42,460 bases of DNA from Gemmatimonadota bacterium. GTDB taxonomy: Bacteria > Latescibacterota > UBA2968. A program made the position numbers and the translations under genes. The stretch's first letter is position 1. Every line of letters starts with the position of its first letter. The notes beneath the pieces are model-generated. The model had not been told where the DNA came from, made no database searches, and saw only the letters and a program-made list of their open reading frames with translations. This document shows, one piece after another, positions 1,947 through 27,154 of this stretch. Location of the stretch: assembly GCA_026706845.1 (NCBI GenBank), contig JAPOXY010000005.1, forward strand, positions 1-42,460, read 5' to 3'.

Positions 1947-2008
1947 TGTTTCGAGATTTCGTATAATTAATTCGTGCGGAGATTGGGGAAAGTTTGGGTG
2001 TCGTGCTA

Positions 2009-2575
2009 TCAGGATGCCTCATCAATTAAATTGCTAAAAGAGAGATTCGAACTCCCTAAAATTTGTAGAAAAACATCAGGACGGCTATGTAATTCTCCCT
2101 GGGACTGAATGTCGAGAGTAGAATGCGTCGGTTGTTTTGGAACGTTAATATGTGCTATACCTACAAATCGGTACTCATAACCTTCGAGAAATCCCTTTGC
2201 TGTCCAGAATTCCCTTCCTATAGATTTGCAATAATCCATAACACATCGCGCGCCTCGTAATTGTGCAACAACTTCACTTTTTTGGATGTTGCCTTTTTTT
2301 GTTTCAATACAGATAATCCACTTTTTCGTATCTTCATTGGATACAATCACGAAATCCGCTCGCCTGCGTTCGTCCTTTGAACCTGCAAAGAAAGCCCGTC
2401 TAAGTTCAAAAACGTCCGTTTTGATAACAATTGAGTCATAAGGCAGTTCTTTTATAACAACCGTTGTTTTAGCTTGCGTGTCGGTTAGTTCGACAGAGAG
2501 CCTACCTTGCTCCTGTTGCAATGGAACCTGCGCCTGAGAGATGAGCATTTCCTGTAATATTTCTATATCATTCAC
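2009..2575 (-). CDS. Putative PD-(D/E)XK-type nuclease, partner of the adjacent ATPase
   Basis: The 188-residue protein starts at a GTG (2575), four bases after the ATPase stop codon. GGGGAG lies 7 bases upstream of that GTG, which favours it over the TTG at 2599. The centre carries a plausible PD-(D/E)XK core: D74 in RRADFVIV, then a beta strand ending in E91-T-K93 (IICIETKKG), then Q105 in VVAQLRGA. The order D...ExK...Q matches restriction-endonuclease-like nucleases. The N-terminus is probably helical and Gln-rich. Coupling to an OLD/RecF-like ATPase suggests an ATP-controlled nuclease in DNA repair or anti-phage defence. The nuclease call rests on motif spacing only. No named defence family could be assigned with confidence. 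Confidence 0.6.
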   Translation of the reverse strand: MNDIEILQEMLISQAQVPLQQEQGRLSVELTDTQAKTTVVIKELPYDSIVIKTDVFELRRAFFAGSKDERRRADFVIVSNEDTKKWIICIETKKGNIQKSEVVAQLRGARCVMDYCKSIGREFWTAKGFLEGYEYRFVGIAHINVPKQPTHSTLDIQSQGELHSRPDVFLQILGSSNLSFSNLIDEAS

Positions 2576-2579
2576 AATC

Positions 2580-3995
2580 TTACTCCCCACCCCACACAAT
2601 ATCCCTCTGAATCCTGTTCATTTTCTCAATAGTCTCGTCAAAACTGGGGGCTTCAATGCCAAGTTCTGGATCAACATCGGCCTCCACAAGCGTATGACCT
2701 CTTCTGCGCCTCTTTTGCCCTTCTTCTAATGGCACCAATGCTTCTTGCGCCATATACACTTTAACCTGATCTGAACGGATCAACTCATCATTCCGATACC
2801 CGTTTTCTTTCGCAATTCTTTTTAAGTGCGGCTTATCGTGATTAAGCATGATAAGCGTATTTAGCTCTTTGACGATGTAATCGCTATGGGTCGTTACAAA
2901 GACTTTAATCCCCAAATTCACCAGACGGGCAAAAAGTCTGGCAATGCGACGTTGATTTTTTGGATGAAGGTTTAACTCCGGCTCATCTACCATAAACAGA
3001 TCTCCCCTATGGGCGACATAGCGCAGATAAAAACCCATATCCAGCAATGAACGCGCAGCACTTGAGCTTTGGTCCATCGTCAATCTGATCCCCGTCCCTC
3101 TGGGGATATAATATAGCTGGTCATTTTGTGTTATACTGTAATCGCCACCGACAATATCCGCAAATTCTTCCAATACATCGGGATGTTCTTTAGTGATAAA
3201 ACTTTTTCTTTTTGAAATGTATTCAAGCTGGCCTATAAACTCTACATTGGCTTCTATTGGCGAAGGATAATTTTGGTACCCTTTGGATAGCAAATCCCGA
3301 GAATCAGCCACTTTGTTCGCCTGCGCCATATCTTCAAGCAGACGGTTGCGAGCAAAATTTAGTTCTCTCCGAAAAATAGCCACACCCGTGCGCTCGGTTG
3401 AAGTGATAAAGGGAAAAGGTAGGGATTGAGAAAAAATAATATCGCTAATCCTATGATGAATAAACCTGTTTGCAATACTGTAAAGCATTTCCCTTCTCCG
3501 GCTTTTCTTTTTTGCCTGCAAAGTGAATATTACCTCTTGACTCTCTTTTCTTTTTAAACAGCTAAAGTGCCAATCCTCGTCGAGGTTCCAATTATCACCA
3601 TCAGTGGACATCATTTCGCGTTTATATTCTATACCAAGTATATCAGGAATTTCTATCTCAATGTGAAATTCACTGTTACCAAACCGGCCTTCTGTTGCCG
3701 CAAAAACTTCATCCAGTTTATCCCTATACTTCTCACAGGCCTCCGCAAGAATTTGATTTGCTGTTTTCACATATTGTGATAAGTCGATATTGAGAACACC
3801 ATCTGCAAGCAATCTTTGTATCTGAGCATCACTAATCGAAAAATCAATAAGTTCACGCCAGGACCGCAAGAAACCGTACAGTGCATAAGCCATATATGTT
3901 TTGCCGGTGTTATTTTCACCGCATATAATGGTTAAATCTCCCAGCGAAAATTCCGCATGCTTTAAGATGCCAAGATTTTTTAATCGTATTCTCAT
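2580..3995 (-). CDS. AAA/ABC-type ATPase of the OLD/RecF-like class
   Basis: The 471-residue ATPase starts at the ATG at 3995, preceded by GGAGGT with 6-base spacing; an upstream frame extension to 4016 lacks this support. The N-terminal MRIRLKNLGILKHAEF is typical of SMC/RecF/OLD proteins. Walker A is GENNTGKT (residues 26-33). An ABC-signature-like SSSAARSL precedes Walker B, LFMVDEPELNLHP (D337, E338), and the D-loop. A switch histidine sits in TTHSDYIVKELN. The middle region (about 60-300) is divergent, as is usual for AAA_15/AAA_21-type proteins. The C-terminal 100 residues are charged and contain no obvious Toprim motif, so the nuclease activity presumably comes from the downstream gene. 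It is the first gene of a two-gene unit. ATPase call: confident. Biological role: inferred. Confidence 0.85.
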   Translation of the reverse strand: MRIRLKNLGILKHAEFSLGDLTIICGENNTGKTYMAYALYGFLRSWRELIDFSISDAQIQRLLADGVLNIDLSQYVKTANQILAEACEKYRDKLDEVFAATEGRFGNSEFHIEIEIPDILGIEYKREMMSTDGDNWNLDEDWHFSCLKRKESQEVIFTLQAKKKSRRREMLYSIANRFIHHRISDIIFSQSLPFPFITSTERTGVAIFRRELNFARNRLLEDMAQANKVADSRDLLSKGYQNYPSPIEANVEFIGQLEYISKRKSFITKEHPDVLEEFADIVGGDYSITQNDQLYYIPRGTGIRLTMDQSSSAARSLLDMGFYLRYVAHRGDLFMVDEPELNLHPKNQRRIARLFARLVNLGIKVFVTTHSDYIVKELNTLIMLNHDKPHLKRIAKENGYRNDELIRSDQVKVYMAQEALVPLEEGQKRRRRGHTLVEADVDPELGIEAPSFDETIEKMNRIQRDIVWGGE

Positions 3996-4201
3996 ACCGA
4001 TACCTCCACCACACATAGTGATCGGTTTTTACTGGTGTTGTGCTCCGCGTATAGCTCCCACCCATCTGCCTCTGAGCAAGGCTGATCGCCTGTAAAGTTT
4101 AACAACAGACGCGGGAATCAATCGTGAAAAGAATAAGGTAAACCACAATCTGTAGCAACTTAAAACCCTGCACAGCGATCAGTAAGGGTTCTAAATGGTA
4201 T

Positions 4202-4348
4202 ATGAAGGCGAGTGATTCATGCAGGTCTGCGATAGCAGTTCAACGAAAAACCCTTGAACGAATGAAAGACTCTGAGTATGATAAAAAAGAATTGGATGAC
4301 TGCGTTGTGCTGGTCGGGATGGTCAAAACCTTCTGGGTCGCGGCTTGA
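4202..4348 (+). CDS. Possible small protein or gene remnant, 48 aa
   Basis: An ATG-started frame of 48 codons ends at TGA 4346-4348. The frame stays open upstream to 4142. The product is charged in the middle (RKTLERMKDSEYDKKELDD) and hydrophobic at the end (VVLVGMVKTFWVAA), which looks more protein-like than random sequence. The ribosome site is weak (AAGGG, about 11 bases upstream). A terminator-like hairpin follows 64 bases later. I do not recognise it; it may be a degraded end of a larger gene. Confidence 0.25.
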   Translation: MKASDSCRSAIAVQRKTLERMKDSEYDKKELDDCVVLVGMVKTFWVAA

Positions 4349-4411
4349 CACCATGCCGCGATGACAACCACTAACGTCCAACCATCCCCCAGCCTCTCTT
4401 TTTTATCTGCG

Positions 4412-4440
4412 AAAAACGCTCAAGTTACTCGCGTTTTTTT
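4412..4440 (+). terminator. Terminator-like hairpin upstream of the permease
   Basis: The arms AAAAACGC (4412-4419) and GCGTTTTT (4431-4438) flank an 11-base loop and run into seven T residues. The stem is AT-heavy but has three GC pairs next to the loop. It could end a short transcript from 4202-4348. Because the permease ATG is only 38 bases downstream, it could also act as an attenuator. The A-tract on the left would let it work on the other strand too. Confidence 0.4.
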
Positions 4441-4478
4441 CTGCGTCATCTGCGGATCACGCTTCACACCTATATCCC

Positions 4479-6947
4479 ATGAAACAAACCCTCTGCCTCG
4501 CAAAAAACTACCTCACCATCGCCGTCCGCAACCTGTTGAGACACCCGGGTTATTCATTGATCAACCTGTCGGGATTGGCACTTGGAATGGCGTGTGCGGT
4601 ATTGCTCGCGATCTACATCTCCTATGAACTGAGCTACGACCGGTTTCGCCCAGAAGTAGCGCGCACCTACCGCGTCATGAAACAAACCCGCCATGCAAAC
4701 GGGCGGATAGCGTGGAACACGGGGCAACAGGGACCACTGGCAACCGTACTGACCGAAGAATTTCCAGAAATAGAAGACGCCACACGCTTTTGGGCGGGTC
4801 TCAGATGGATAACCGCCGGGGAAAAATCGCTTCAACAGATGTTCTGGTTAAGCGACCCCAACGTATTCGCGTTCTTCGGCATAGAAGTCCTGATAGGCGA
4901 TCCCCAAACCGTATTACAAGACCCATTTTCAGTAGTTATAACAGAATCCATCGCACGAAAATTCTTCGGAACCATCAATCCAATCGGCAAAATAATCACA
5001 GTAGATCACAACCTATTTGGCGGCACATATCAAATCACTGGCGTCATTCGGCAAGCACCCCACAACTCGCGGTTTCAATATGACTTCATCACCGCCACCA
5101 TGCCACAGGGCGTTCGCCAGCGCAGATCGTGGGATCACTGGTTGCCGCCAGCGTACTCGCGCCCGGCAAACACGTACCTGCGCCTGAAACCCGGAGCAAA
5201 TCCCGAAGACATCGCCCGCAAATTGCCGGAACTCGTCGAACGCTATGCGGAAATCGCAGAAGACGAAAGCGAAACCGTGCGCTATTATCTCCATCCCGTC
5301 TCGCGCATGCACCTGTATTCCAAAATCGATATGCCCGGATTTACCGGCGACGCGGGAAGACCCTACAAGGACATACAGCAGATCTATCTGCTGGGACTCG
5401 TGGGATTCTTTATCCTCACAATAGCCTGTATCAACTTCATGAACCTCTCCACAGCCCGATCCGCCAGCCGTGCAAAAGAAGTGGGACTCCGAAAAGTCGT
5501 GGGCGCGTATCGCTCGCATCTCATAAAGCAATTCCTTGGAGAATCCCTCCTCTTATCCGCCCTATCGGCCTGTATAGCCCTCGGACTGGTATATCTCGCA
5601 CTACCCCCGTTCAGCGCATTTGTGCAAGAAAACCTCACCCTGAACAGCGGATTAACCCTCTGGATCCTGGGAATCACCCTGTTCGTCGGGCTATTATCCG
5701 GAAGCTATCCCGCACTCTACCTCTCCGCATTCGAACCCGCGACCGTATTGAAAGGCGGAGCAATCAAAGCCGGATCAGCCCCGGCCCGCGTGCGAAAAGG
5801 ACTTGTCGTGTTGCAATTTGCCATTTCGATTATATTAATCATAGGAACCATCATTGTAGCCGATCAAATGCGATTGATACGGGAAAAAGACCTGGGATTT
5901 AACAAAGATGAAGTCGTCGTCGCCTCAATCTTTCGACAAGACCGATATCAAAGCGATGGCGGACAGTTGCAAAAGCGATATCTGCAAATAAAAGACGCAT
6001 TCTCACAACACCCGAACATCACAACCGTATCGGCAACATCGCATTTGCCGGGAAACAGCTGGCCTAATCGCGAGTGGTTCTTCCCGGAAGGCGACCCGGA
6101 CCGGGGCGTTGAAGTGCGGGTATTTGGCGCAGACGAGGCATTTATAGACTGCTACGACATTCCCCTGCTATCCGGGCGAAATTACGACCGCACGTACGCA
6201 GAACGCGCGTGGGAAAGACGCGGCAAACCCGGCGAATTATTCGTCCTGAACGAAACGGCAGTAAAAGTATTTGGCTGGACAGACCCCATAGGAAAAATAC
6301 TGAACTCACACGTTCGAAAAGGACATGTGATCGGCGTGGTCAAAGACTTTCACTATCGGCCCCTCTACGAAACCATCGAACCACTGGTCATCACAGCCGC
6401 GTGGTATCGCCTCAGCCACCTCTCCATGCGGATTCGACCGCAAGGACTCTCAGAAACAATGGCATTTCTACAACGCACCTGGACGCAATTTCTTCCCACC
6501 CGCTCGCCCGAAATCGCCTTTGCGTCCGACCAGTTGGAACGCTGGTATCGGGACGACCAGCGCACGAGACAAATATTCAGCGCGGCATTTGTCATCGCGA
6601 TCTTTGTCGCGTGTCTGGGCCTATTGGGATTGGCAGCTTTCACCGCAGAACAGCGCACAAAAGAAATAGGCATACGCAAAACAATGGGCGCATCCGTCTG
6701 GAATCTGATAATCCTGCTGTGCAGAGACTTTATCATCCTCGTTGGAATAGCAAATTTGATCGCCTATCCGATTATTTATCTGGCGATGGACCGGTGGTTG
6801 CAGCATTTTGCCTATCGGATTGAACTCAGCGCAACCCCATTCGTCCTCGGAAGCCTCCTCACATTGGGAATCGCGCTATTAACCGTAAGCACGCAGGCGT
6901 GGAAAGCCGCCCGAACAAATCCCACCGAGACATTGCGATATGAGTGA
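4479..6947 (+). CDS. MacB/FtsX-type ABC transporter permease (no ATPase partner nearby)
   Basis: The 822-residue inner-membrane protein has the duplicated MacB-periplasmic plus FtsX layout. An N-terminal membrane helix lies in the segment YSLINLSGLALGMACAVLLA (residues about 27-46), followed by a large extracytoplasmic domain and an FtsX core with several helices (about 295-415, containing SRAKEVGLRKVVGA). A second half repeats this pattern: the helix VLQFAISIILIIGTIIVAD near 447, another soluble domain, and a C-terminal FtsX core with EQRTKEIGIRKTMGA. Such proteins move or export substrates by mechanotransmission, driven by a MacB-like ATPase. No ATPase gene is adjacent, so it must come from elsewhere in the genome. 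The frame ends inside the upstream region of addB. Its coding strand is C- and A-rich. The substrate cannot be predicted. Confidence 0.88.
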   Translation: MKQTLCLAKNYLTIAVRNLLRHPGYSLINLSGLALGMACAVLLAIYISYELSYDRFRPEVARTYRVMKQTRHANGRIAWNTGQQGPLATVLTEEFPEIEDATRFWAGLRWITAGEKSLQQMFWLSDPNVFAFFGIEVLIGDPQTVLQDPFSVVITESIARKFFGTINPIGKIITVDHNLFGGTYQITGVIRQAPHNSRFQYDFITATMPQGVRQRRSWDHWLPPAYSRPANTYLRLKPGANPEDIARKLPELVERYAEIAEDESETVRYYLHPVSRMHLYSKIDMPGFTGDAGRPYKDIQQIYLLGLVGFFILTIACINFMNLSTARSASRAKEVGLRKVVGAYRSHLIKQFLGESLLLSALSACIALGLVYLALPPFSAFVQENLTLNSGLTLWILGITLFVGLLSGSYPALYLSAFEPATVLKGGAIKAGSAPARVRKGLVVLQFAISIILIIGTIIVADQMRLIREKDLGFNKDEVVVASIFRQDRYQSDGGQLQKRYLQIKDAFSQHPNITTVSATSHLPGNSWPNREWFFPEGDPDRGVEVRVFGADEAFIDCYDIPLLSGRNYDRTYAERAWERRGKPGELFVLNETAVKVFGWTDPIGKILNSHVRKGHVIGVVKDFHYRPLYETIEPLVITAAWYRLSHLSMRIRPQGLSETMAFLQRTWTQFLPTRSPEIAFASDQLERWYRDDQRTRQIFSAAFVIAIFVACLGLLGLAAFTAEQRTKEIGIRKTMGASVWNLIILLCRDFIILVGIANLIAYPIIYLAMDRWLQHFAYRIELSATPFVLGSLLTLGIALLTVSTQAWKAARTNPTETLRYE

Positions 6948-6958
6948 GGAATAGTCCC

Positions 6959-9943
6959 ATGCAATACCACCTCGCACAAATAAAAGCATTCTGTGACGCG
7001 CATCCAATCGACGCAAAAGTCCTGATCGTCCCCACCATGACCGCAGGGCACGACCTGACACTCGCACTTGCGGCAACGGGATATTCGTGGCTGAACTTGC
7101 AAATCGAAACCCCGCGCAGCCTCGCGGAAAAAGATGCGGGTGCCCATCTCATCGCAGAAGGACATGCGCGCATGGCGCAAGACGCGGACTTATTCTGGCT
7201 GGACGAAATCATCCCCCGGGTCGTGCGCGAAATCGATGATGAGTACTTCGCGCAACAAGCCACTGCGCTCGCGCGACCTTTTCTGCGCACATTGCGCGTC
7301 CTGCGTGCAGCGGGTTTGGAACTGGAAACCGACTCGCTTTCTGAGAAAGGCACGCGGCATCAGGTATTACGGCATCTTTACCAGACGTATTGTGCGACAT
7401 TTGAAAGAGACCACCTCTACGACAACGCCGTATTGTATCGACATGCATTGAACCATCAAAAAACCCATCTGCCCCAAAAAAATACACACTATGCCATCCT
7501 CGATGAAACTCCATTACCTAAACTGGCATTCGACTATCTCAGCGAAAAAACAAAGGGTTATATCTACCGCATCGGGCGAAATAATACGGGTGTATCGTCC
7601 CCGCCACACAGTGCGACAAAACGCTTTCCCAAAGCACCCTATCCCGCCAACACAGGCAAAATCGGAGTGGGCGGAAACATATCTAAATCGAGATTAAACC
7701 CCAGAGACAAATCTCAAATTCAACTGTGCGAAACCCTCGGCACCGAAACAGAAATCAGCACCGTATTGCGCGACATAAGATCGGGAACCATACCCCTGGA
7801 CACCGTCGAAATCGCATACACCTCAGAAATGCCCTATGTGAGCCTGTTGTGCGATGCGGTTCAGCGATATGGGCTGCCCGCCACATTTGCCGAAGGCATA
7901 CCTGTTTCGACAACCCGAACCGGTCGCGCACTGGTGAACTTTTACCGGTGGGTAGGCGTGGGATACCCCTCTGACGAACTCGTAATGATGTGCCGCGCGG
8001 GCCTGATCGCCACCGAAGGCGCACCTGTAATTGCAACCGTCCTCCAACACGCGCATATTGGCGAAGGTGAAGGTCCTCGGCGTTATTTTACTGCTCTGAA
8101 CCAGATAAAAGCCGACCTGCGCCATAGAGACAGTGAAAACTCGGAAACCGACCATCGCGGATTAACCCTTGAGGAAATCGAAGCCGTTGAAGAAGAACTC
8201 AAACGCTTATTCGATCTCATCCCCAGCGGACCCCGTGTATCGCTCGGTGCATTGGTCAATGCTGGCTTGCAATTTCTCGCGCACTTTGCAAACGCCGAAG
8301 ATGAGGTCCTCACCGCGATCCGGGATCGCCTGCACCACGTGGCCCAATCCGTGCGCCGCAAAGCACCTGTACGCCGACTGGCAAACCGTCTATCTGAATT
8401 GATCGCCAACCTCTCTTTTAAAGCCGAAGCAGCCAAATCCGGACATCTGTCAATAGCCCCGCTTTCGCGCGCGGGATACACCAATCGCGCACATATTTAC
8501 ATCACAGGCCTGGACGAAGCCACCTTCCCCGGTGGCGCAACAGAAGACCCAATACTATTAGATGGCGAGCGCTCGGGCGTATCCGATGAACTGGAATTGC
8601 GCCGCAAGCGACCCGCCGAGCAAGTGTGGCATCTCATCCGCGTATTGGGCATGGCATATAGCAAAGTGACATTATTGTCCTGCCATCGAAGCCTATCCGA
8701 CAGCCGGGAACGCTATCCCGCCGCCCTCTTTCAGCAAGCCGCCGAACAGATGAACATCAACCCTATACCTGTTGCACCCACTTTGCCCCAAACATCTACA
8801 CAGGCGCTGGACGACGCAGAGGCACTGATAGCGCACCACGCCTCAGCCGACTACGAATCCGTTGTGCATCAGACCTTCCCCCATCTGGTCGCAGGACAAA
8901 AGGCGCGCCGCAATCGCGAATGGGACGGATTGACGACCTATGATGGCTGGCTCGGCAAGCCCACACCCGAATTGGCGATTACCGCACAGCACCGCATCTT
9001 TTCACCCTCAAAACTGGAAATGCTCGCCCGATGTCCGTACCGGTATTTTTTGAACTACGTACTCGAAATACAACCCATAGAAAAAACCGAAACCGACCCC
9101 ACGCGATGGCTCGACCCCCTGTCTTTTGGCGCGTTATTACACAGCTTATTCCACAAATTCATGCAAACCCTGAAAGCGCGGGGCGAACGCCCCGACCGCG
9201 AACGACACGAAACGCTAATTCGTAAAATCTTAGAACGAGAAATAGAAGCAAAAAAAGAAACCCATCCCGTTGAACACGAAGCAGCGTATCGCGCCGACGT
9301 CAAACGCCTATCGCAAGCCGCGCAAGTATTTCTATCCGTCGAGTCCGATGAAAAAAACGCCGACCCCATCGGATTTGAAGTGAGCTTTGGATTTGGAGAA
9401 TCGGGCGGGCTGAATTGCGAACCCCCTGTGACACTCGAACTCACAGAAGACGTCGCGATTCGCATCCGCGGGCGTATTGACCGCGTAGATCGAGTCGAAG
9501 ACAACTTTGTAATTTGGGATTACAAAACTGGATCCATGGCACAATACGACGAACGGGACCTGCTCAAACGCGGCACGCATTTGCAATGGGCACTGTACGC
9601 TTATGCTCTGAATTCGATCTTGAGACAACAACGCGAACCTGGACGCGTACAATTATCCGGTTACGTCTTTCCCGGCGACAGAGAACACGGCCGCAGGCTT
9701 TCAGAAACGCCGCCAGCACCCGAAACACTCGCCAATGTGTTGCGCCCCCTGCTCGAACTGGTAGAGAAGGGCGGCTTTTTTCACATACAGAAATCCCAGG
9801 AATGCGACTACTGCATCTACAACCGCGTCTGCAGCAAAGAACGCCTGGACGCCAACGCCCTCGCCGACGCGCGTGAAACAATGGACGACGACCCCGACTT
9901 CGCACTCTTGCTGGACAGCCTCAATCGCTGGATGGGAATATGA
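6959..9943 (+). CDS. addB: AddB/RexB-like subunit of the AddAB helicase-nuclease
   Basis: The product is 994 residues from the ATG at 6959, which has GAGGA 8 bases upstream; the GTG at 6944 overlaps the permease stop and lacks a ribosome site. AddB works with AddA to process double-strand breaks for RecA loading. The C-terminal nuclease carries RIRGRIDRVD and IWDYKTGS (D854, K856). Four cysteines in the arrangement typical of the AddB iron-sulfur domain are present: C692 (ARCPYRYFLNYVL) and then C949, C952 and C958 (CDYCIYNRVC). The N-terminal half resembles an inactivated UvrD-like fold. I see no Walker A motif, so it is closer to RexB in that respect. The stop codon overlaps the addA start (ATGA), indicating translational coupling. 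Confidence 0.88.
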   Translation: MQYHLAQIKAFCDAHPIDAKVLIVPTMTAGHDLTLALAATGYSWLNLQIETPRSLAEKDAGAHLIAEGHARMAQDADLFWLDEIIPRVVREIDDEYFAQQATALARPFLRTLRVLRAAGLELETDSLSEKGTRHQVLRHLYQTYCATFERDHLYDNAVLYRHALNHQKTHLPQKNTHYAILDETPLPKLAFDYLSEKTKGYIYRIGRNNTGVSSPPHSATKRFPKAPYPANTGKIGVGGNISKSRLNPRDKSQIQLCETLGTETEISTVLRDIRSGTIPLDTVEIAYTSEMPYVSLLCDAVQRYGLPATFAEGIPVSTTRTGRALVNFYRWVGVGYPSDELVMMCRAGLIATEGAPVIATVLQHAHIGEGEGPRRYFTALNQIKADLRHRDSENSETDHRGLTLEEIEAVEEELKRLFDLIPSGPRVSLGALVNAGLQFLAHFANAEDEVLTAIRDRLHHVAQSVRRKAPVRRLANRLSELIANLSFKAEAAKSGHLSIAPLSRAGYTNRAHIYITGLDEATFPGGATEDPILLDGERSGVSDELELRRKRPAEQVWHLIRVLGMAYSKVTLLSCHRSLSDSRERYPAALFQQAAEQMNINPIPVAPTLPQTSTQALDDAEALIAHHASADYESVVHQTFPHLVAGQKARRNREWDGLTTYDGWLGKPTPELAITAQHRIFSPSKLEMLARCPYRYFLNYVLEIQPIEKTETDPTRWLDPLSFGALLHSLFHKFMQTLKARGERPDRERHETLIRKILEREIEAKKETHPVEHEAAYRADVKRLSQAAQVFLSVESDEKNADPIGFEVSFGFGESGGLNCEPPVTLELTEDVAIRIRGRIDRVDRVEDNFVIWDYKTGSMAQYDERDLLKRGTHLQWALYAYALNSILRQQREPGRVQLSGYVFPGDREHGRRLSETPPAPETLANVLRPLLELVEKGGFFHIQKSQECDYCIYNRVCSKERLDANALADARETMDDDPDFALLLDSLNRWMGI

Positions 9944-12900
9944 CCCTTCAAGATCAACAAGCACGCGATAAAATTGCCGAAGCACTGGATCGCAATATGA
10001 TGGTGCTCGCAGGAGCGGGTGCGGGAAAAACCCATGCGCTGGTGCAGCGGATGGTGAACGCGGTGCAAACAGGTGTCGTACCCGTAGATCAACTATCTGC
10101 AATCACCTTCACGCGCAAAGCAGCGGGTGAAATGCGCGGGCGATTTTTCAGTGAATTAAAATCGCGTGCCAAAAACGCAGGCGGTGAGGACCTGGACCGC
10201 ATTCAAAACGCACTCGAAAAAGTAGATCAATGCTTTATTGGCACCATACACTCATTCTGCGGCCAATTATTGCGAGAACGACCCGTTGAAGCGAGCCTGC
10301 CACCCGACTTTTCAGAAGTCGAAGAACGCGAAGAAGCCGTCATGCGCCGCGAAGCGTGGGATCAATTTGTCCAGCAGCGTTTTCTATCCGAAGACCCGCA
10401 ACTCGTCAAATTTGAAGAACTGGGCCTGCGCCCGGAAGACCTGTATGGATTTTTTCAAAGACGCTACCAGTTCAGCGATGTACCGCTCGTAAGCGAACCA
10501 GTACAAAAACCCGATTTATCGACCGCAGTTTCACAACTTGAAGCCTTTCTGCAACGCACGGAAGCCCATATCCCCGATCCACTTTCCGGCAGACGCGATG
10601 CCCTCCAGACAGCATTGTCCCGCGCGCGATTATTCCTGTCGAACCGGGGGATTCACACCGACGCGGATCGCATCGAACTCCTGAAAATACTCAGCGGAAA
10701 CCTCGGTGTCACCCTCAAAAGCTGGACGCCCAACCAGGATTTTGCAAAATACTTGCGAGACACCTTATTACCCGAATTTCAAACCGAAATACTCGACCCC
10801 ACCCTCACCAGATGGCGGCAATACATCTACCGATTCGCTGCCCCCTTTGTCGATGATGCAGTTGCAGAATACGCCAGAACCCGCCGCGAATCCGGCCGCC
10901 TCACATTCCAGGACCTGCTCGAACTCGCCGCACGATTACTGCGCGACCACCCCGAAGTGCGCCGTCACTTTCAAGATCGATATCGCTGTCTATTCGTAGA
11001 TGAATTTCAGGATACCGATCCCATCCAGGCCGAAATATTGCTGTATTTAACCGGCGAAAACCTGCAAGAAACCGATTGGCGCAAAATCACACCCCGCCCG
11101 GGCAGCTTATTTTTAGTAGGCGACGGCAAACAATCAATCTATCGCTTTCGCCGCGCGGATGTCGAAACCTTTGACCTCGTCCGCAACCGCATTGACAATA
11201 CCAATGGCGATATCGTCAACCTGAACACGAACTTTCGCTCACTGGGTCACCTCTGCGATTGGATCAACGCGGCATTTGAACCCCTGTTCACCGCGCATGA
11301 AAAACCCTATCAAGCCGAATTTGCTCCGCTATTCAAATACAGACCCAATGGTGAAAATATGGCGGTCCACCGAATCTCAATCGACAAAGTCTATCGCAAC
11401 AGCCGAAGCCAGATCGCAGAGGAAGACGCCGCGCGGATTGCAAACTTCATCGCAGCTGCCATAGAAGGCAAAACGGAAATTAATGGAGAAGCGGTCAGCG
11501 CATCGCCGGGCGACTTTCTCATCTTAACGCGTACCTCTGGCTATTTGTCCCATTACGCCCAGGCACTGGAGGAACACGGTATCCCCTTTGAAATCACGGG
11601 TGGTGATCGCCTGGGTGAAGCAGACGTATTGCACACACTCGCGGATTTTTTGGAAACCGTTTATATGCCCGACAATCCGCTACCACTACTCGCCTATTTG
11701 CGGGGGGATCTCGTCGGCCTGGGAGATGATGCCCTCTATGCATTCAAAAAAGCAGGCGGTGATTTCAACTGGACACGCGATCTGGCCAAAGGAATGGATC
11801 CAGAATTACACCGACTATTCGAGCAAGCGTATGACCATTTAAAAAAAGCGTCGAAATGGTTGCAATCCCTATCGCCAGATACTGCCATAGCGCGCTGTGT
11901 ACAAAGACTCGGCCTCCTGCCTTTTGTGCGCACTCTGCCCAGAGGAGAAACTCATGCCGGCAATCTCATCCGCATCTTATCTCTCGTCCGCGAATGGAGC
12001 GCGCAGGGATTGCACTGGGGGCAGGTGGTGACCGAACTGCGCGCCCTCATTGACGACAGAGACTACAAAATTGAACAAATGTCCATCCCCTCCGCACAGG
12101 AAGACGTCGTGCGATTGATGAACCTCCATCAAGCTAAGGGATTACAGGGCAAAATCGTCTTCCTCGCCGACCCCTATGACACGAGTTACACGCGCTATGG
12201 TCCCGAGTTTCACGTATCCCGCACCAGCGACGAACCCTTTTTGGCATTACCCATTACAAAACCCCGCGGGCCATATCAGCGCGAAGTCGTCGCCGAACCT
12301 GTGGGTTGGGAAGACGCCGAAGCCGAAGAAACGCGATTTTTGCAAGGTGAAGAACTGCGATTGCTCTACGTAGCGGCAACGCGCGCAGAAAATTTGCTCG
12401 TAGTATCCACCTACGAGGAAAAACCCGACCATGGACCGTGGTCGCCGCTCTATCCCCATCTAAAAAACGTGCCCGAACTGGCGCACGGCGACCATTCACC
12501 GCAACCCACCCCAGAAACCCCATCAACCAAAACACCATCTGTAGAAATAGAACGAGTACAAAGAGATCAATTCTGGAAAACCGTGCAAAAACAATCCTTT
12601 GAAGTAATACAGGTAACAGATGACCGGGCGGACATCACATATACGGACGAAGAGCGATCAGCAGCAGGCAAAGGCGCTGCGTATGGCACCGTAATCCACC
12701 GGATATTCGACGACGCCATCAACATGCGATTGCCCGATGATCCCACACCTTATGTCATACATTTGCTACAGGAGGCAGGTGCAGACGCCGAGTTTTTACC
12801 GAACGCACTGGATGCATTGCAGCAATTTCGCAACTCGGAAATATGGACGGAAATACAGGCCTCGGAAACCGTCTATACCGAAGTCCCCTTTGCGGTATCG

Positions 12901-24447: not shown

Positions 24448-25353
24448 ATGAATTGGAAAATCCAAATCGCTAAAATCATATTGGACGAAGTAATTACAAC
24501 TGTATCGGAACAAGAGTTTAATCGACTTGCCAGTGGCTTAAATATTAATGAAAAACCAGAAGATAAGGTTCGCTACGCGCTCGAATCACTTGGGAAACTT
24601 GGAATCGGCGAGATGTCCGATTACCACGATGAATGGGTCGCGCTTTTTTATCACTGGTATCAGCCCGCTCACATAAACCTTGCGTATAGTATGATTAAAT
24701 CAACTGGCATATTGAATGAAAAACTGCACATTGTAGATTTCGGGTGCGGCTCGCTGGCAATGCAATTCGGTGTTGCGTTAGCAGTAGCGGACAAGATAAA
24801 TAAGAAATCAATAACTGAAATCAGGATAGATTCAATAGATACAAGTCCGGCCATGATCAAAGTCGGGCAGAAGATGTGGGAGTTGTTCAAACTAAGGGCG
24901 TGCAGATACCCCGATCTCTACAATGCGTGCGAAATCATAAAGCCGAAGTACTACAGCGACATTAAAAAAGTTGAATTGGCAAAGAATAGCGACTGTTGGA
25001 TTAGCGCAATACACTCAGTTTACGAAGCAAACAAAGCCGATGTAAAGCAGTCGCTCAAGTCCCTTGTAGATAGACTCCGCCCCGATACGTGTTTCCTGTC
25101 CACAAACTCTTCAAAGGAATCTCTTTTGTCAGAAGTGTGGCCTTTTGCTTCCACTAACAGTAAAAACGTTGACCCCCAGCCCCAGTTCAATGGCGCGCTA
25201 ACACAAATTACGCGGTGGAGAAGAAAACTGAACAACACACATTCACAATCCCATGGTTATCTATACTCTCCCGTCACATGGGAATGGCGTGACGCCGCAA
25301 TCTGGCGTTTTTATTCTTGGAAGTACCTACCGACGCATTTACAAGGATGGTGA
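24448..25353 (+). CDS. Class I SAM-dependent methyltransferase-like protein
   Basis: The chosen start (24448, MNWKIQIAKIILDEV) gives 301 residues; an upstream extension would translate the palindromic repeat and is rejected. Motif I is IVDFGCGSLAMQFG (from about residue 95, D97), followed by an acidic residue after the next strand in DSIDTSPAMIKVG, as expected for SAM binding. The remainder matches no methyltransferase subfamily I can name, and the substrate could be protein, RNA or a small molecule. The gene ends five bases before the radical SAM gene, so the two are probably co-transcribed. Base use is more AT-rich than in the cupin before it, hinting at a separate origin. Confidence 0.7.
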   Translation: MNWKIQIAKIILDEVITTVSEQEFNRLASGLNINEKPEDKVRYALESLGKLGIGEMSDYHDEWVALFYHWYQPAHINLAYSMIKSTGILNEKLHIVDFGCGSLAMQFGVALAVADKINKKSITEIRIDSIDTSPAMIKVGQKMWELFKLRACRYPDLYNACEIIKPKYYSDIKKVELAKNSDCWISAIHSVYEANKADVKQSLKSLVDRLRPDTCFLSTNSSKESLLSEVWPFASTNSKNVDPQPQFNGALTQITRWRRKLNNTHSQSHGYLYSPVTWEWRDAAIWRFYSWKYLPTHLQGW

Positions 25354-25358
25354 TCTTT

Positions 25359-26291
25359 ATGACTACATCTAATCAATACCTGTTATTTGATGATGCCGAT
25401 GTGGATCAGTTCCCAGCGGAGAGTCAACCGGAAGATCGGCCTGATCGCATTGGACAAGCCGAGGTCGAATATAAGCCTACCAGCACGATATTGACGCCCG
25501 CTACCGGGTTCATGGACGCCTACGACTATACCTTGAATCCGTATAGCGGATGCTCTTATGGCTGCACCTACTGCTATGCAGCGTTTTTCAGCCGCGACCG
25601 CACAAAGCAAGACTCATGGGGCTATTGGGTTAGTGTCAAAGAGAATGCGGTCAAAAAAATGGAAGGGATCAAACGCCCCCTTGATGACAAGCTTATCTAC
25701 ATGAGCAGTGTCACCGATCCCTACCAACCCATTGAGCGTGAACTGAAGATAACCCGCAAGTTACTGAAAATTATGGCAGAGGGGTACAAACCCAAATTGG
25801 TCGTACAAACGCGTAGCCCCGATGTCGTGCGCGACTGCGACTTGTTCCATCGAATAAAAAAAAGAGGCGGACAGGTGCAGGTGAATATGACTGTCACCAC
25901 TGACGACGAAGACATAAGGCGCACTTTCGAGCCGTACTGTCCTTCCAATGCTATGCGATTACGTGCAATCGAACAGGTTCAGGCTGAGGGCATCGAAGCT
26001 TGCATCACCATGACCCCCTTGCTGTTGGTAAAAGACGCCGAGGTATTCTGCAAGAATTTGCTAAACACACATGTCAAAAAATTCATTGCACAACCATTCC
26101 ACTTCCAGCGGGGCAGGTTTGTTGCAGGCACAAGCGAAAAAGCGTTCGCACTGATGGTAGAAAAACTCGGATGTACACCATCATCATTCCGCGACGAATA
26201 TATGCAGCACTACGATGAGACGGCAGAGGTTCTTCGCAAGAATTTGCCGAACCTGGGTGAAGGTAAAGACGGATTCGCACCCCCCTTCTAA
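25359..26291 (+). CDS. Radical SAM protein of the SplB-like (COG1533 / Rv2578c) group
   Basis: The product is 310 residues from the ATG at 25359, which has AAGGATGG upstream. The 4Fe-4S cluster motif is C65-x3-C69-x2-C72 (CSYGCTYCYA). The preceding LNPYSGC and the later SVTDPYQPIERELKITRKLL and VQTRSPDVVRD are typical of the spore-photoproduct-lyase-like group often annotated as DNA repair photolyase. Real substrates for most of these proteins are unknown. It sits between a methyltransferase and a NucS-like nuclease, a setting compatible with nucleic-acid modification or repair. Confidence 0.85.
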   Translation: MTTSNQYLLFDDADVDQFPAESQPEDRPDRIGQAEVEYKPTSTILTPATGFMDAYDYTLNPYSGCSYGCTYCYAAFFSRDRTKQDSWGYWVSVKENAVKKMEGIKRPLDDKLIYMSSVTDPYQPIERELKITRKLLKIMAEGYKPKLVVQTRSPDVVRDCDLFHRIKKRGGQVQVNMTVTTDDEDIRRTFEPYCPSNAMRLRAIEQVQAEGIEACITMTPLLLVKDAEVFCKNLLNTHVKKFIAQPFHFQRGRFVAGTSEKAFALMVEKLGCTPSSFRDEYMQHYDETAEVLRKNLPNLGEGKDGFAPPF

Positions 26292-26404
26292 ATATACTTT
26301 TGGACGGGTACAGAGGCACACCCCTGCACAATTTAGACAAAAAAAGAACCCTTACCCTGGCGAGGGCCAAAATCCCGTCAGAGATAAAACCAGGGAGAAG
26401 CAAA

Positions 26405-27154
26405 ATGCAAATATACGAAGATCCTGTCCATATATTGCTGAGAGAAATGGCTGAGGATCTTATAGAACATCCTGATCAACAATTCACAAGACAGCAGGCA
26501 ATTGATTGGTTTAAGGAAAAATATCCTAATGTCAGCTCAACAACTGTCGGCGCACAGTTAGCACGCCTATCAACGAATGTGCCACATCGGACTCACTACA
26601 GCCCTAAGCCCGTCAAAGATGACTTTTTCTTTAAGATTGATAGCCAGCATTACCGCCTCTATAACTCTGATCAAGACCCTAAGCCAATTCATGCCTCGGA
26701 AGAATCCCTCAATGATGAGCCTAGTACTGAAGAATACACCAATCCCCAAGGATCATCTGAATTTGCATACGAATCAGATCTGCAAAAATATCTCGCCAAA
26801 AATCTTTCTATCATTAAACCTGGGCTCACACTCTATGAACCAGAGGGGACTAGTGGCATTGAATTTCCAGCTGGTGACGGACGTTCTATTGATATTTTAG
26901 CTATTGACTCTAATGGTGATTTCGTGGTCATAGAATTGAAGGTGTCTCGAGGCTATGATCGTGTGATTGGGCAGATATTACGCTATATGGCCTGGGTTCG
27001 CCAAAACGAGGCCACATCTAACCAGAATGTCTATGGCATAATCATCGCCCGCGAAATTAGCAACGATTTGTTGTTGGCATCGTCTGAGGCCAGAGACATC
27101 CAATTGTTTGAATACGAATTATCATTTAATCTGAAACAAGTCGAAACGACTTAG
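26405..27154 (+). CDS. Nuclease-like protein: N-terminal winged-helix-like domain plus NucS/DUF91-like domain
   Basis: The start at 26405 (MQIYEDPVHILL) follows GGGAGAAG and gives 249 residues. The N-terminal 85 residues (REMAEDLIEHP, FTRQQAIDWFKEKYP, STTVGAQLARLS) look like a winged-helix or similar DNA-binding domain. A Glu/Ser/Pro-rich linker follows. The C-terminal domain has D163 (SIDILAID), E177-L-K179 (FVVIELKV), then VIGQILRYMAWVRQN and YGIIIAREISNDLLLAS, matching the PD-(D/E)XK core of NucS/EndoMS-type (DUF91) nucleases. Family members cut mismatched or branched DNA, or act in restriction. Context with a radical SAM protein and a methyltransferase suggests DNA repair or defence. Domain call: fairly sure. 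Role: inferred. Confidence 0.8.
   Translation: MQIYEDPVHILLREMAEDLIEHPDQQFTRQQAIDWFKEKYPNVSSTTVGAQLARLSTNVPHRTHYSPKPVKDDFFFKIDSQHYRLYNSDQDPKPIHASEESLNDEPSTEEYTNPQGSSEFAYESDLQKYLAKNLSIIKPGLTLYEPEGTSGIEFPAGDGRSIDILAIDSNGDFVVIELKVSRGYDRVIGQILRYMAWVRQNEATSNQNVYGIIIAREISNDLLLASSEARDIQLFEYELSFNLKQVETT

Follow-up and report, generated by a model that had tools for sequence, protein, structure and literature searches.

The window, i.e., the whole stretch of DNA analysed here (42,460 nucleotides, contig JAPOXY010000005.1, from a Gemmatimonadota bacterium assigned by GTDB to the Latescibacterota), carries near one end a two-gene cassette held by a polymorphic insert:

1950 to 4461 (no strand): polymorphic insert around the cassette (the same-genus genome G029, locus L114, has 144 bp in its place)
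2580 to 3995, minus strand: ATPase gene, PDC-M47A family, OLD/ABC-type (471 aa; ATG at 3995, stop ending at 2580)
2009 to 2575, minus strand: nuclease gene, PDC-M47B family, PD-(D/E)XK-like (188 aa; GTG at 2575, stop ending at 2009)

The nuclease gene lies downstream of the ATPase gene on the same strand, after an intergenic gap of 4 bases (2576-2579). The gene anatomy, this gap, the Walker motifs and the residues D74, E91-x-K93 and Q105 are all located where the original prediction had placed them. The AT-rich island that it described is found again in the base composition, the GC content being 41.6% for the ATPase gene and 40.8% for the nuclease gene vs 50.1% in bases 4479-42460 of the window. 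In the same way, 42 of 44 homologous loci have a cassette that is AT-richer than its surroundings. Both genes are under purifying selection (dN/dS of 0.22 for the ATPase and 0.15 for the nuclease, relative to the closest genus relative, L002). A promoter scan gave 7 matches for 5.2 expected by chance, a terminator scan found none, and Rfam and tRNA scans gave no match anywhere in the window.

From its sequence, the ATPase is assigned to the RecF/SMC/OLD superfamily. Pfam recognizes only AAA_15 (2.3e-25) / AAA_21, and the solved structures nearest to its AlphaFold model (pLDDT 82.7) are those of the Septu/retron PtuA (E 4e-10). Motif conservation was read from an alignment of 41 sequences (A2):

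3897 to 3920, minus strand: Walker A GENNTGKT, residues 26-33 (G26, N28-T30 and K32-T33 invariant; G31 in 39/41)
3045 to 3068, minus strand: putative ABC-signature-like SSSAARSL, residues 310-317 (S311, S312, R315 and L317 invariant)
2961 to 2999, minus strand: Walker B and D-loop region LFMVDEPELNLHP, residues 333-345 (DEPE invariant)
2877 to 2894, minus strand: H-loop region TTHSDY, residues 368-373 (6/6 positions invariant)
2583 to 2726, minus strand: C-terminal tail, residues 424-471 (where the nuclease probably docks; the swapped tract described below covers its last part)

Walker B itself, VDEPELNLHP, spans residues 336-345, and SSSAARSL would correspond to the ABC signature.

For the nuclease, conservation and the AlphaFold model are built on a 58-row alignment. 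The residues of the putative active site are the following:

2297 to 2356, minus strand: core catalytic motif, with D74 (2354-2356), E91 (2303-2305) and K93 (2297-2299)
2261 to 2263, minus strand: Q105, on the helix that follows the catalytic strands (invariant, 58/58)

D74 and E91 are, like Q105, invariant in 58/58 homologues, and the motif of the window copy reads E91-T-K93. Residue 93 is a lysine in 41 of the 58 homologues and a glutamine in the other 17. This K93/Q93 interchange requires at least 7 changes on the ATPase tree, and all Q93 alleles fall in a Poribacteria-Latescibacterota-Caldilineaceae clade. Since E-x-Q active sites exist in restriction enzymes, e.g., BglII, the Q93 homologues may be active too. 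In the model (pLDDT 89.2, pTM 0.87), D74 immediately precedes strand 75-81, E91 and K93 close strand 84-92, and helix 99-123 carries Q105. This is the PD-(D/E)XK pattern, i.e., D and E-x-K/Q on neighbouring strands, then a helix, with K or Q at position 93 in 58/58 sequences. Foldseek comparison with solved structures retrieves at the top mostly FokI, BamHI, N.BspD6I and MUS81, with a best E of 0.028 (0.03-0.07 for the FokI/BamHI matches). As no match falls below E 0.001, the fold assignment rests on motif and layout. Foldseek against viral models likewise gave no match below E 0.001, the sequence search against solved structures (single sequence and profile) gave none, and Pfam proposed only a sub-threshold HSDR_N_2. 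The conserved motifs and the AlphaFold layout agree with the earlier proposal of a pair in which a nuclease with a PD-(D/E)XK-type active site is gated by ATP. A second PD-(D/E)XK-type candidate of the window, a protein combining DUF7669 and a NucS C-terminal nuclease domain (26300-27154, plus strand), adjoins a radical-SAM gene (25317-26291).

The profiles of PADLOC-DB 2.0 assign the pair to PDC-M47, a computed phage defence candidate. The ATPase matches the PDC-M47A profile PDLC04664 over residues 1-470 of 471 (E=7.2e-202) and the nuclease matches the PDC-M47B profile PDLC04668 over residues 2-185 of 188 (E=1.6e-58). The ATPase also matches PD-T4-4_A (PDLC04033, E=1.4e-155), PDC-M47A scoring higher, and the best PD-T4-4_B profile reaches E=0.014 (13 bits) on the nuclease. 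The window pair is thus a PDC-M47 member and a sibling of PD-T4-4. These full-length matches to curated profiles, joined to the invariance of D74, E91 and Q105 and to the dN/dS values, show that the pair of ORFs is not due to chance. It shares with PDC-M47 both profiles over their full length, gene order and spacing, and no feature distinguishes it. A literature search for PDC-M47 found neither a paper nor a tested member. The description of the pair as uncharacterised and unmatched is not supported, because the pair is catalogued as PDC-M47 and its siblings PD-T4-4 and WonAB were experimentally tested. As the family is already catalogued and akin to experimentally protective pairs, the find is largely ordinary.

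PD-T4-4 came out of a selection against T4 in E. coli (Vassallo et al. 2022, PMC9519451). Its ATPase is homologous to that of the window and has the same motifs, the gene order is the same and the small nuclease, also homologous, shows the pattern D...(D/E)-x-K...Q. However, this nuclease is far diverged from that of the window, the tail and insert regions are unlike, and the E-x-K/Q of M47B corresponds to D-x-K in the PD-T4-4_B of plasmids. The layout of the window pair recurs in PD-T4-4 operons from Escherichia and Klebsiella plasmids and from Vibrio phage 1.202.O. The nucleases of these operons give weak but significant matches to PDC-M47B profiles (E 1e-4 to 1e-7), and the PDC-M47 nuclease-family profile finds them in the reverse search. 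Since each set of profiles matches the proteins of the other, the tested and the candidate nucleases are homologous.

WonAB, from the WASA-1 prophage of V. cholerae (PMC12137116), also associates an OLD/ABC ATPase with a C-terminal extension and, downstream, a small PD-(D/E)xK nuclease, and its authors consider it related to PD-T4-4-like operons. Judging from their description rather than from a sequence comparison, the window pair resembles WonAB, WonB (16.1 kDa) being smaller than the 188-aa window nuclease. By contrast, Septu/retron PtuAB shares with the window pair only the ATPase side: PtuA is its nearest solved fold (E about 4e-10), but PtuB is an HNH nuclease, whereas the window partner is PD-(D/E)XK-like and gives no HNH match in Pfam or PADLOC. 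Neither protein carries a Toprim or UvrD-like domain according to Pfam, and only ATPase parts match OLD, Gabija and PARIS. The distinction initially drawn from OLD, Gabija, Septu and PARIS is therefore correct.

A scan covering 84,980 species genomes yielded 80 loci, which are close relatives by design. The pairing of homologues had been chosen beforehand as a point on which the prediction could fail; in nearly all 80 loci, a nuclease homologue directly follows the ATPase gene on the same strand, and the loci without this adjacency are explained by a contig end or by decay. Of 79 pairs, 41 have genes that share 1 base, and a nuclease-like ORF follows all 13 full-length ATPase relatives found on viral contigs. 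Nuclease genes are decayed in several loci, and L075 has an intact nuclease gene beside a broken ATPase gene, unless this is an assembly error. An apparent fusion of ATPase and nuclease in L011 was not retained, since the nuclease match extends only to residue 63 and a frame error is as likely. Relatives reside on plasmids, on prophages and in restriction-modification (R-M) operons. A PD-T4-4-type pair is the only cargo evident at its location on a 4.8 kb E. coli plasmid (L126), on the 4.3 kb K. pneumoniae plasmid pKPN6 (L128) and on a Vibrio P2-like phage (L129), where it lies between the CI repressor and the integrase.

The cassette is mobile, as seen by comparison with genomes of the same genus. 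In blastn, bases 1-1949 and 4462-8000 of the window match L114 of G029 at 92-93%, and bases 1950-4461 have no match there except two short stretches beside the edges. G029 thus provides an empty site for the cassette. In G037 (L120), a TnpB-like gene is associated with a deletion that took away the nuclease gene together with the last part of the ATPase gene; this TnpB-like gene, of IS200/IS605 type, lies within the G037 cassette (L120:6460-7689, minus strand). No tRNA, integrase or repeat was found at the insert edges in the stretches examined. The gene that neighbours the cassette in the window (P0003, 1275-1946, plus strand) encodes a 223-aa protein, has a GC content of 37.5% and is without match in Pfam, PADLOC and NCBIfam; both this gene and the cassette are absent from G034. 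P0003 was rejected as a third component, because in the phylum search it is confined to this genus and because G029 carries it without the cassette.

Besides the mobility of the cassette as a whole, the nuclease gene is exchanged together with the end of the ATPase gene. The window, G033 (L116) and G031 (L115) occupy the same site and share about 90% identity over 8 kb. Over 1951-2700, which covers the nuclease gene plus ~40 codons at the end of the ATPase gene, identity between G031 and the window drops to 69-81%, and the swapped G031 allele carries Q in place of the catalytic K93. Sister ATPases thus carry nucleases that are only about 60% identical. According to these alignments, nuclease alleles are swapped between close relatives, which is new here. 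Furthermore, the comparison of 71 pairs indicates that, once the rest of the ATPase is corrected for, the distance between nucleases best tracks the C-terminal region of the ATPase, the partial r being 0.44 for residues 377-423, 0.51 for residues 424-470 and at most 0.21 elsewhere. This signal fits a docking of the nuclease on the ATPase extension, as predicted for WonAB (PMC12137116), and the C-terminal tail is probably the docking surface. However, an equal C-terminal signal would arise if recombination simply carried adjacent DNA along (hitch-hiking).

We favour, with a probability of about 0.8, the reading of the window pair as an anti-phage cassette of the PDC-M47 family, within the PD-T4-4/WonAB class, ATP-gated and most likely acting by abortive infection. 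The ATPase would be an OLD/ABC-type sensor, probably an ATP-bound dimer, which would hold or license the small PD-(D/E)XK-like nuclease, probably via its C-terminal tail. A phage-induced signal would activate the nuclease and the latter would stop the infection, most likely in an abortive way. By analogy with WonAB, its target would probably be RNA needed for translation and not the chromosome. Indeed, WonAB protects only if wonA and wonB are both present, with the ATPase motifs and the lysine of the nuclease intact, and it aborts infection by a block of translation that leaves chromosomal DNA intact and allows phage DNA replication (PMC12137116). Alternatively, the activated nuclease could cut phage or plasmid DNA directly and the host could survive, as PD-(D/E)XK enzymes are mostly DNA cutters and the nearest folds are those of restriction enzymes. 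Direct immunity, and not abortive infection, was reported for 7 of 11 systems with DNase-like parts (PMC9519451), which may or may not include PD-T4-4. Nevertheless, WonAB, the closest mechanistically studied relative, blocks translation with chromosomal DNA intact and the window cassette is devoid of a methylase for self/non-self marking, so that direct restriction seems rather unlikely.

A simple toxin-antitoxin system, where the ATPase would merely neutralise the nuclease, is improbable. The overlapping two-gene operons found on plasmids and prophages recall such systems, and over-produced WonB is toxic in WonA-containing cells. However, WonB is toxic only with an active WonA ATPase and harmless without WonA or without its ATPase activity (PMC12137116), which excludes simple sequestration in WonAB; the intact nuclease beside the broken ATPase of L075, if not an assembly error, also argues against it. 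DNA repair had initially been proposed beside defence. In a housekeeping role of this kind, a RecF/OLD-like ATPase would load the nuclease on damaged DNA. The ATPase does belong to the RecF/SMC/OLD superfamily, and dnaN-recF-gyrBA is located about 9 kb away from the cassette, which adjoins addAB-like genes. Yet the cassette is present in only 6/11 genomes within the genus and 9/64 within the phylum (Latescibacterota), a precise empty site and a decayed copy exist in the same genus, and relatives are found on small plasmids, in a P2-like phage and in R-M operons, with decay of the nuclease gene in several loci. Repair is thus little supported and very improbable, and defence is the part of the initial proposal that stands as the most likely role.

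Type III R-M genes, the only neighbours examined for enrichment, are found near the pair in about 19 of the 80 loci. This linkage, through which the suggested check for defence islands was made, is seen among relatives and not in the window, where no defence system adjoins the cassette; type III R-M genes beside it are also absent from the Latescibacterota loci checked. The clearest case is L025 from Nitrosomonas (5361-12633), where five touching ORFs lie on one strand:

5361 to 7652: methyltransferase
7649 to 8017: DUF4325 STAS-like ORF
8001 to 9383: ATPase
9389 to 9940: nuclease
9943 to 12633: Res

In these loci the PDC-M47 pair sits in or beside type III R-M operons on their strand, often with a small DUF4325 STAS-like ORF, and an AriAB-like (PARIS-type) gene is also present in L008, L009 and L030. 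An unselected phylum sample of 85 Poribacteria genomes contains the nuclease in 35 genomes, a type III methyltransferase in 29 and both in 22. In 15 of these 22 genomes, the pair and the methyltransferase lie within 10 kb of each other, always on the same strand (15/15). Random placement would give such a linkage with P about 1e-31, a figure that shared descent makes larger in reality.

This situation is comparable to that of PrrC, the known precedent, which is carried by the type IC R-M locus EcoprrI and acts as a second line of defence once restriction is inhibited (PMC12707154). In both cases, a translation-targeting nuclease and an ATPase-type regulator would be held by an R-M locus. However, PrrC is a single protein, is not homologous as tested and is associated with a type I rather than a type III system, and the window copy lies outside any R-M locus. 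Literature searches found no report of the PDC-M47 pair in type III R-M operons, only PrrC-type cases of R-M loci with an embedded guard when type III was searched, and nothing useful on DUF4325 and defence. The linkage suggests a PrrC-like guard in those 15 Poribacteria genomes, not in the window, and this is new here. By extension, PDC-M47 could guard type III R-M in Poribacteria and some Pseudomonadota. The pair would fire upon inhibition of the R-M enzyme by a phage, like PrrC in a type I system, with the DUF4325 protein as one part of the relay, and the window copy would be a stand-alone derivative; this broader proposal is speculative and rather doubtful.

Related pairs protect E. coli (PD-T4-4, PMC9519451) and V. 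cholerae (WonAB, PMC12137116) experimentally, and the window cassette, which is related to them, is probably a working phage defence. The type III R-M position, if functional, would represent the type III counterpart of the PrrC guard, a reading that concerns relatives rather than the window copy. The window pair itself extends the catalogued defence candidate PDC-M47 to a phylum without cultured hosts, and the comparative data provide testable points for the PD-T4-4/WonAB class, namely docking at the tail, K/Q interchange, nuclease swapping and the R-M position.
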